Shown in pieces: positions 45,708 to 46,809 of a stretch of DNA of 64,000 nt. The notes below the pieces were generated by a model. The model was given only the letters and a program-made list of their open reading frames with translations, ran no database searches and was not told the DNA's origin. Numbering within the stretch: the stretch's first letter is position 1; each line of letters starts with the position of its first letter. Source of the DNA: Fulvivirga sp. M361. GTDB lineage: Bacteria; Bacteroidota; Bacteroidia; Cytophagales; Cyclobacteriaceae. Where the stretch lies: positions 124,001-188,000 of the forward strand of contig NZ_VKDC01000003.1 in the NCBI RefSeq assembly GCF_007097395.1, in the 5' to 3' direction. The position numbers and the translations under genes are program-made.

Positions 45708-45739
45708 TTGCTTTTGTAAACACTATTTGATTAGCTTTA
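45708..45739 (+). promoter_or_regulatory. candidate promoter of the ilv operon
   Basis: TTG (45708-45710), a 21-base spacer and TAGCTTTA (45732-45739) fit TTG-TAnnTTTG with one mismatch. A TATAAT hexamer overlaps at 45738-45743, with TTGTAA 18 bases upstream. Either reading puts the transcription start at about 45746-45752, just before the leader-peptide ATG. Confidence 0.5.
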
Positions 45740-45754
45740 TAATAAGATTTAGAA

Positions 45755-45826
45755 ATGAGAAATATAAATATCATAGTCCTCGTCATTATTAATGTCATCG
45801 TCAAAACGGCGATCGGGGATAGGTGA
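45755..45826 (+). CDS. ilv operon leader peptide (attenuation)
   Basis: A 23-codon ORF, ATG at 45755 and TGA at 45824-45826. Its core reads N-I-I-V-L-V-I-I-N-V-I-V, and 12 of the 23 residues are Ile (7), Val (4) or Leu (1). It directly precedes a strong intrinsic terminator and the first ilv gene. This is the structure of enterobacterial ilv leader peptides, in which stalling on branched-chain codons prevents termination. The sequence is shown directly; function by analogy. Confidence 0.85.
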   Translation: MRNINIIVLVIINVIVKTAIGDR

Positions 45827-45882
45827 TATTTGCATGCTAATGAAAAATATCAAGCGCCATCCCCCGGGATGGCGCTTTTTTT
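45815..45882 (+). terminator. ilv attenuator: terminator with competing antiterminator
   Basis: AAGCGCCATCC (45852-45862) pairs perfectly with GGATGGCGCTT (45867-45877), an 11-bp stem with a 4-base loop followed by seven T (45876-45882). GGGGAT at 45815-45820, within the last leader codons, is complementary to ATCCCC at 45859-45864 and would break the terminator stem. A ribosome stalled upstream in the Ile/Val codons leaves 45815-45820 free (read-through), whereas one that reaches the stop codon covers it (termination). Confidence 0.85.
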
Positions 45883-45918: not shown

Positions 45919-46809
45919 ATGTACTACGATGAAAACACCATAATATTCCTCGATGGGAAATGGATACGAGCCAGCGAGGCCCGGACCGGCATGTATAATC
46001 AAACTATGCACTATGGCAACGGGGTGTTCGAAGGAATCAGGGCCTATCAGAATGCCGATGGATGCAATGTGTTTAAGGCAAAAGAGCATTTTGAAAGATT
46101 ACAATATTCTGCCACTAAAATGCATATTGACCTTCCATATTCAATCGATGAATTGATCAATATTTCTTACGAATTGTTGGATAAAAACGATCTGAAAGAT
46201 GCGTACATACGGCCACTGGTATACCTGGGAGCTAATATGTCACTGTTGCCTACGGATGAAGTACATGTTTTAATGGCAGCCTGGAAATGGGAGAAATTGT
46301 TAGGGGAGGAACCACTTAAAGTTATGGTTTCCTCTTACCAACGGCCTAACCCCAGGTCGTGTCACGTGGAGGCTAAAGTGGTGGGACACTATACAAATTC
46401 AATTCTCGCGACTGCCGAAGCTAAGAAATTAGGGTATGATGAAGCGCTACTGCTGGATATACATGGTAATGTAGCGGAGGGTTCCGGAGCTAATTTTTTC
46501 TATGAAAAAGAAGGGATATTATACACTCCTCCGGCAGGTAACATTTTACCTGGAATTACTCGTGCAACTATCATGGACCTGGCAAAAGACCTCGGAATAC
46601 ACGTGACCGAACGTCAATTTACAATAGAAGAGGTCTATAATGCTGATAATGCCTTCTTCGCTGGTACGGCAGCCGAAATAGCGCCTATTGAATCCATTAA
46701 TGGAGAGAAATTCAAAGGTTCATGGCAGGAGTCTGCAGGGCACAGCCTTTATCTGATGTATCGTCAAAAAGTTCAATATAACGAATACCAAGGTTTAACT
46801 ATTGTTTAA
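45919..46809 (+). CDS. ilvE: branched-chain amino-acid aminotransferase
   Basis: Last step of Ile, Leu and Val synthesis, transferring the amino group from glutamate. A fold-type IV PLP enzyme of 296 residues; the PLP Lys is Lys153 in [19 protein letters not shown] and the distal G-T-A-A-E-I-A-P-I motif are typical. First structural gene after the attenuator, 36 bases beyond its T-run and 5 bases before ilvD. Confidence 0.95.

Follow-up and report, generated by a model that had tools for sequence, protein, structure and literature searches.

Introduction

Leader-peptide attenuation is a textbook mechanism in Escherichia coli and is best known from Proteobacteria and Actinobacteria. The nearest classical counterparts of the locus described here are, we take it, the leader attenuators of the enterobacterial ilvGMEDA and ilvBN operons. 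These share with it a short leader rich in Ile, Val and Leu, a protector, an antiterminator and a terminator ahead of ilv genes, a likeness from which we claim no common descent, such elements being too short and too divergent for that. Bacteroidota start translation without Shine-Dalgarno sequences, and the leader that we describe from Fulvivirga differs from the enterobacterial ones: it has no visible Shine-Dalgarno sequence, its 5′ UTR is probably short, and the strand that can join either the protector or the antiterminator (segment 2) is made up of the final leader codons together with the stop.

Attenuation of the E. coli ilv genes is mentioned in PMC10272879, and leaders of related appearance have been described elsewhere. 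The ilvB leaders of Actinobacteria (PMC1262725; the ilvB-II motif, PMC10272879) likewise place an ORF rich in branched-chain amino acid codons and a terminator before ilv genes, but they belong to another phylum and precede another first gene, and their ORFs, as these sources describe them, overlap the terminator hairpins. According to PMC1262725, a similar-looking ilvB leader of Streptomyces coelicolor did not respond to codon changes, which counsels caution for the reading given below. Staphylococcus aureus, one of the Bacillota, has a leucine-rich ilv attenuator (PMC5794164), which is also a leader-peptide attenuator of a branched-chain amino acid operon outside Proteobacteria; that system is described as leucine-responsive, whereas the Fulvivirga leader is dominated by Ile and Val. 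Two leader ORFs in series before one operon are known from Salmonella mgtCBR (PMC3641672), where the two units are reported to sense different signals, ATP and proline; the paired units that we find in Bacteroidota are rich in the same amino acids.

Within the phylum, a 2021 transcriptome of Flavobacterium psychrophilum reported "strong clues" of leader-peptide attenuation before amino-acid operons (PMC9723704), and a map of Bacteroides thetaiotaomicron noted sORFs "reminiscent of leader peptides" (PMC7366714), so that this kind of regulation is known and the phylum is not untouched. The F. psychrophilum clues concern amino-acid biosynthesis operons, as here; they come from transcript data, and the passage reporting them gives no leader sequences, structures or conservation. 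In the open-licence literature, which does not take in Lopatovskaya et al. (2010), the likeliest earlier survey, we found no description of an ilv attenuator in Bacteroidota. What is added here is sequence-level evidence over many relatives, a full predicted structure at one locus, and a serial variant.

Results

A leader ORF and a terminator precede ilvE

We analyzed a window of 64,000 nt from Fulvivirga sp. M361 (assembly GCF_007097395.1, contig NZ_VKDC01000003.1, forward strand, positions 124,001-188,000); all coordinates below are those of the window and all features lie on its plus strand. The ORF list gives the gene order leuA-leuC-leuD-leuB, a 239-nt gap, and ilvE-ilvD-ilvB-ilvN-ilvC-ilvA, the names being our reading of the ORF proteins rather than the outcome of a family search. 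ilvE, for a branched-chain aminotransferase (45919-46809), is the first gene 3′ of the leader, and ilvD, ilvB, ilvN, ilvC and ilvA follow it up to 53218.

Leader ORF and terminator both lie inside the leuB-ilvE gap, the leader beginning 75 nt after the end of leuB. A preliminary description had claimed an ORF of 23 codons, 12 of them for Ile, Val or Leu, followed within 26 bases by a GC-rich 11-bp terminator with seven T just before ilvE, and direct reading and folding confirm this. The ORF (45755-45826; ATG at 45755, TGA at 45824-45826) encodes MRNINIIVLVIINVIVKTAIGDR, with no Shine-Dalgarno sequence before it that we could see by eye. The terminator stem (45852-45862 with 45867-45877) has 11 bp and a 4-nt loop (-19.9 kcal/mol, z -5.75) and runs into seven T at 45876-45882; from the stop codon to its first A-U pair is 25 nt, and to its first G-C pair 27 nt. 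By sequence and fold, an intrinsic terminator stands between the leader and the first structural gene.

When we scanned for leaders rich in Ile, Leu and Val or in repeated codons, this was the sole leader/terminator unit of its kind in the window, at one of eight strong terminators on both strands. An attenuator was also looked for upstream of leuA in the window, and none was found. We conclude with high confidence that the region before ilvE is a ribosome-mediated (leader-peptide) transcription attenuator, which would respond to charged tRNA-Ile and tRNA-Val and less to tRNA-Leu.

The leader evolves as a coding sequence

The leader was aligned over 11 close relatives, comprising ten genus members (the window included) and one locus from a neighbouring genus (L018); L016, a genus member of another type, is outside this set. 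Of the single-base codon differences, 58% are synonymous when read in frame; the two shifted frames give 22% and 20%. Every gap within the ORF has a length divisible by three, and the columns for Leu11, Ile13 and Val16 are invariant. Judged by these patterns, the leader evolves as a protein, and together with the scan controls given below they mark it as a short ORF rich in codons for the regulated amino acids. Across 78 units, the residues are 21% Ile, 14% Val and 9.5% Leu, and on these shares we infer that Ile and Val are the likely signals. At L040, 137 nt before ilvE, the leader frame seems disrupted by comparison with L038 and L039 while the terminator is kept; this locus (7/24 I/L/V) was retained in the counts.

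Units of this kind recur before ilvE and ilvD in relatives

ilvE of this type was found in 13 of the 15 genomes of the genus and in 63 of 148 genomes of the family. Conservation was counted among loci having this ilvE, leaving out two partial matches (G141, G059) and two loci lacking upstream DNA (L015, L077). An Ile/Val/Leu-rich ORF ending just before a terminator is present in 67 of 72 ilvE upstream regions, the window included. Two of the five misses (L009, L078) hold only 65 nt; the other three (L031, L068, L072) have no unit. With a fixed scan of the 69 regions of at least 500 nt, a unit was called in 64 forward strands and 4 reverse strands, and in 2, 0 and 0 of 69 in three dinucleotide-preserving shuffle sets. 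Applied to 45 his, hom and trp loci of relatives, the same scan gave an "ILV" call in 9; we inspected eight of these calls, and most proved to be ORFs next to genuine trp or his terminators. Since the unit is the only one in the window under our scan and recurs in relatives, it is not a chance arrangement. The preliminary description had looked to related ilvE upstream regions for conserved leader codons and compensatory changes; the alignment and the pairing tests below found both, the ORF and the pairing being conserved in relatives.

In a second set of ilvE loci (4 of the 50 repeat family loci), a unit was found in 43 of 50, compared with 0 of 26 from other phyla; L208 and L215 carry the label of other phyla but are perhaps wrongly binned, and L204, L206, L244 and L250 were excluded from the comparison for short upstream DNA. 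ilvD is present in 145 of 198 genomes of the phylum, and 69 ilvD upstream loci were inspected. Among the 29 best-scoring of these beside the window, a looser scan (at least 5 I/L/V, 25%), run without a shuffle control, called a unit in 22, some of them weak (L085, L088, L089). A stricter 3-kb scan of 40 more loci from many families, two of them from the window's own, gave 10 calls, of which we believe 7 (L115, L116, L120, L121, L146, L147, L148); L109, L110 and L112 were judged to be ends of longer genes or chance ORFs. L145 had been fetched 381 nt too far upstream, so that the DNA beside its ilvD falls outside the scan. Scans anchored on ilvE and ilvD miss operons that begin at another gene. 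The second set and the ilvD loci together indicate that the unit is spread well outside the family too.

A covariance model of the close relatives, built for a survey of the phylum, finds the window copy at E 1.8e-18 and no convincing second copy in the same genome (next E 0.16). Across 194 genomes of the order it gave matches at E ≤ 0.01 in 6, one of them the window's. Beside the window, two matches (L290, L291) coincide by coordinates with scan units in L045 and L047; the others (L287-L289) were rejected, one lacking a unit and two having unconvincing ORFs. With so few genomes matched, distribution was judged by the scans upstream of ilvE and ilvD.

Protector, antiterminator and terminator helices

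Within the control codons, segment 1 (45765-45782) pairs with segment 2 (45814-45832), which comprises the last leader codons, the stop and the next 6 nt; an inner hairpin of this 1:2 structure (45797-45813) is a possible pause hairpin. Folding of the window gives the 1:2 helix -22.4 kcal/mol (z -3.69), and RNAalifold recovers both helix and hairpin from the 11 close relatives. Across these relatives, 84.8% of helix and hairpin positions are paired, against at most 58.1% when the strands are slid, and four pairs show two-sided change, a number reached by 27 of 500 shuffles. The pair at columns 41-87 is broken in 8 of the 11 sequences, and the count of two-sided cells, which covers the 11 close relatives, is not clearly above shuffles (91/500). 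A protector helix is thus present in the window and in its close relatives, imperfectly in some.

Segment 2 can instead pair with segment 3 (45852-45864), which is the 5′ arm of the terminator with the start of its loop and also the 3′ strand of the antiterminator. The preliminary description had proposed GGGGAT (45815-45820) with ATCCCC (45859-45864); positions and pairing hold, and the antiterminator proves longer than those six pairs. In the fold, GGGGAT-(A bulge)-GGT pairs with GCCATCCCC, and stacked inside is an A/T helix of GATATTT, from segment 2, with AAATATC, an A/T-rich spacer strand (45845-45851), for -19.4 kcal/mol in all. This inner helix is also compatible with the terminator, formed by segment 3 with segment 4 (45867-45882; the 3′ arm and U tract). 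When both alternatives are folded together with no ribosome, the terminator is preferred (-26.4 kcal/mol). Similar A/T spacer helices were seen by eye in L030 and L033.

The terminator covaries by our counts: 95.4% of its cells are paired, and five pairs show two-sided change, which 0 of 500 shuffles reach. For the antiterminator, comparison of the duplex with shuffles gives p ≤ 0.05 for 69 of 81 units and a higher value for the other 12. Three units that are ends of longer genes (L030 -566, L034 -378, L055 -700) were then removed before the swap test, the promoter-box count and the geometry. Each unit's own terminator arm pairs better than swapped arms, with z -14.9 over the remaining 78 units and, over 59 distinct arms, z -12.8 and 0 of 10,000 permutations. 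The own arm ranks in the top tenth in 55 of 78 units and first in 7, seldom because similar arms are common to many relatives. Strand and arm change together, as in GGATTGG/CCAATCC (L014), GGAATGG/CCATTCC (L020) and GAGGTGG/CCACCTC (L023). On a plain MAFFT alignment the antiterminator is 80.6% paired, against at most 55.8% when slid; two-sided changes there number three pairs and eight cells, which is not above column shuffles (362 and 58 of 500), partly because close relatives carry a one-base bulge at this place. As the comparisons stand, the strong evidence for a covarying antiterminator that excludes the terminator is the swap test, and the plain alignment count is weaker.

Geometry fits ribosome-mediated attenuation

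The preliminary description held the positions to be right for the enterobacterial mechanism, and codon-to-strand distances and the end of the strand at the stop agree. In the window, a distance of 15 nt or more separates 11 of the 12 control codons from the antiterminator strand downstream of them. The end of this strand falls within the stop codon according to the duplex test and 5 nt beyond it according to the fold; in relatives the strand occupies the final leader codons or the surroundings of the stop. None of the 78 units has fewer than four control codons at a distance of 15 nt or more on the 5′ side of segment 2, and segment 2 ends no more than 12 nt past the stop in 75 of 78. A ribosome at the stop reaching 12 nt beyond it would therefore cover segment 2 in those 75. 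These counts assume a ribosome reach of 12-15 nt and are partly by construction, segment 2 having been sought from 42 nt upstream of the stop codon's last base onward. Under that reach, the codons are placed such that stalling would free segment 2 and a ribosome at the stop would cover it.

The predicted 1:2, 2:3 and 3:4 pairings are the classical set, among which, in our model, the order of transcription and the ribosome decide. With tRNA-Ile and tRNA-Val charged, the ribosome would run to the stop at 45824 and cover segment 2, whereupon segments 3 and 4 would form the terminator and RNA polymerase would stop before ilvE. With these charged tRNAs scarce, it would stall in the Ile/Val run (codons 4-16) and open the 1:2 helix without covering segment 2; the latter could then pair with segment 3, and RNA polymerase would read on. 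An untranslated leader would form 1:2, so that the terminator would work by default, and the ilv genes behind ilvE would fall under the same switch. We infer from these features that the leader is translated and that the response runs in this direction.

Alternative explanations

Given that leuB ends 75 nt before the leader, the terminator could merely end a leuACDB transcript, with ilvE served by a separate promoter and the ORF a chance product of A/T-rich DNA, which gives Ile-rich ORFs. leuB does lie upstream on the same strand in 21 of the 67 loci, but was not found upstream in the other 46 (tblastn, 1e-10). Codon-frame conservation, the scan controls and antiterminator covariation demand a function of the leader, and his and trp versions have matching codons, which makes this reading very improbable. 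We give slightly less credence still to a metabolite- or tRNA-binding RNA (a riboswitch or T-box), or an RNA-binding protein, choosing the structure with the ORF incidental. Alternative structures of this kind are common to such systems, but covariance-model searches with Rfam, which presumably includes the T-box among its families, returned zero matches at gathering score anywhere in the window. Aptamer-level conservation outside the pairing strands is absent, as the six matched genomes of 194 in the order indicate; the conserved parts are frame and codons.

A variant closer to our proposal keeps the ribosome and dispenses with the protector helix in most relatives, giving a three-segment device in which lack of translation would lead to read-through rather than termination. 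The 1:2 pairing was counted in the 11 close relatives and is imperfect there, and in other clades possible 1:2 pairings were seen by eye only; the window, however, folds the strong 1:2 helix given above. We think this variant unlikely, though clearly less so than the two preceding explanations.

A candidate promoter box and near-leaderless leaders

The TAnnTTTG promoter box is placed at -12 to -5 in PMC9723704. The exact box is absent at the window leader, where a candidate -7 box, TAGCTTTA (45732-45739), matches it at 7 of 8 positions; initiation there would leave a 5′ UTR of about 11 nt. Of the 67 first units, 10 have an exact TAnnTTTG whose end is 4-16 nt upstream of the start codon; mononucleotide shuffles give a mean of 1.3% and at most 6%. 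None of 11 later (second) units has such a box close before it, as expected if one promoter serves both. In nine loci (L020, L021, L030, L032, L033, L034, L036, L074, L076) the box ends 8-11 nt before the leader ATG; with the published box position this gives a 5′ UTR of about 4-7 nt, implying a leader ORF that is almost leaderless. L019 and L024 have leaders whose start codon shares bases with the stop codon of leuB (TAATG); such an attenuator would lie inside the operon, and ribosomes probably reach its leader through translational coupling.

Further probable attenuators and serial units

In the same genome, hisG is preceded by MTIISSTYHHHHHSIPDQARGSMC (L159, His5) and trpE by MKRNNFYNAWWWYFHNI (L189, Trp3), each with a terminator. 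His leaders were found at 8 of 13 loci. For trp, the scan covered 12 of 19 PF04715 loci, all but the 7 weakest, and 10 of these 12 have a leader. The antiterminator duplex passes 0.05 in 5 of 8 his units and 9 of 14 trp units, and a thr-type leader was found before homoserine dehydrogenase in 0 of 20 loci. With his and trp leaders beside the ilv leader, attenuation seems to be a general habit of this lineage.

Two units stand in series in 11 of the 67 family loci (L016, of the window's own genus, L026, L029, L042, L043, L044, L045, L047, L048, L066, L071), and both duplexes pass 0.05 in 9 of the 11. On forward strands the fixed scan called at least two units in 15 of 69 regions, and neither the reverse strands nor the shuffles yielded any such call. 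One spurious two-unit call (L223) was removed from the second set, where serial units then remain in 13 of 50; two-unit loci there include L211, L214, L224, L225, L229, L230, L232 and L233. All units pass 0.05 in 9 of the 13, and neither does in L240. Carriers include Tenacibaculum caenipelagi, Roseivirga pacifica and Pontibacter indicus, and L228 has three units in series, which span the DNA between 436 and about 40 nt upstream of ilvE. At L183, L186, L187 and L191, trpE is preceded by two Trp-rich (WWWH) leaders in tandem, and every one of these leaders has a terminator to itself.

It is an even call whether much of Bacteroidota controls its amino-acid operons through ribosome-mediated attenuators that are frequently doubled or tripled as complete serial units for the same amino acids (ilv, trp), setting RNA polymerase two independent ribosome checks, with some leaders near-leaderless or starting on the stop of the preceding gene. 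If so, transcription and translation would be closely coupled in bacteria that use no Shine-Dalgarno sequences, and a series of attenuators could steepen or widen the response. The covariation and coding evidence suggests a ribosome near enough behind RNA polymerase to decide termination; coupling would thereby become testable with a simple reporter, and the tandem units would offer a natural series for what is gained from serial attenuation.

The serial units also vary in composition. At L228, peptides two and three hardly differ, which points to a recent duplication. At L043 and L048 the first unit, rich in Leu and Val, contains one Ile; the second contains more.
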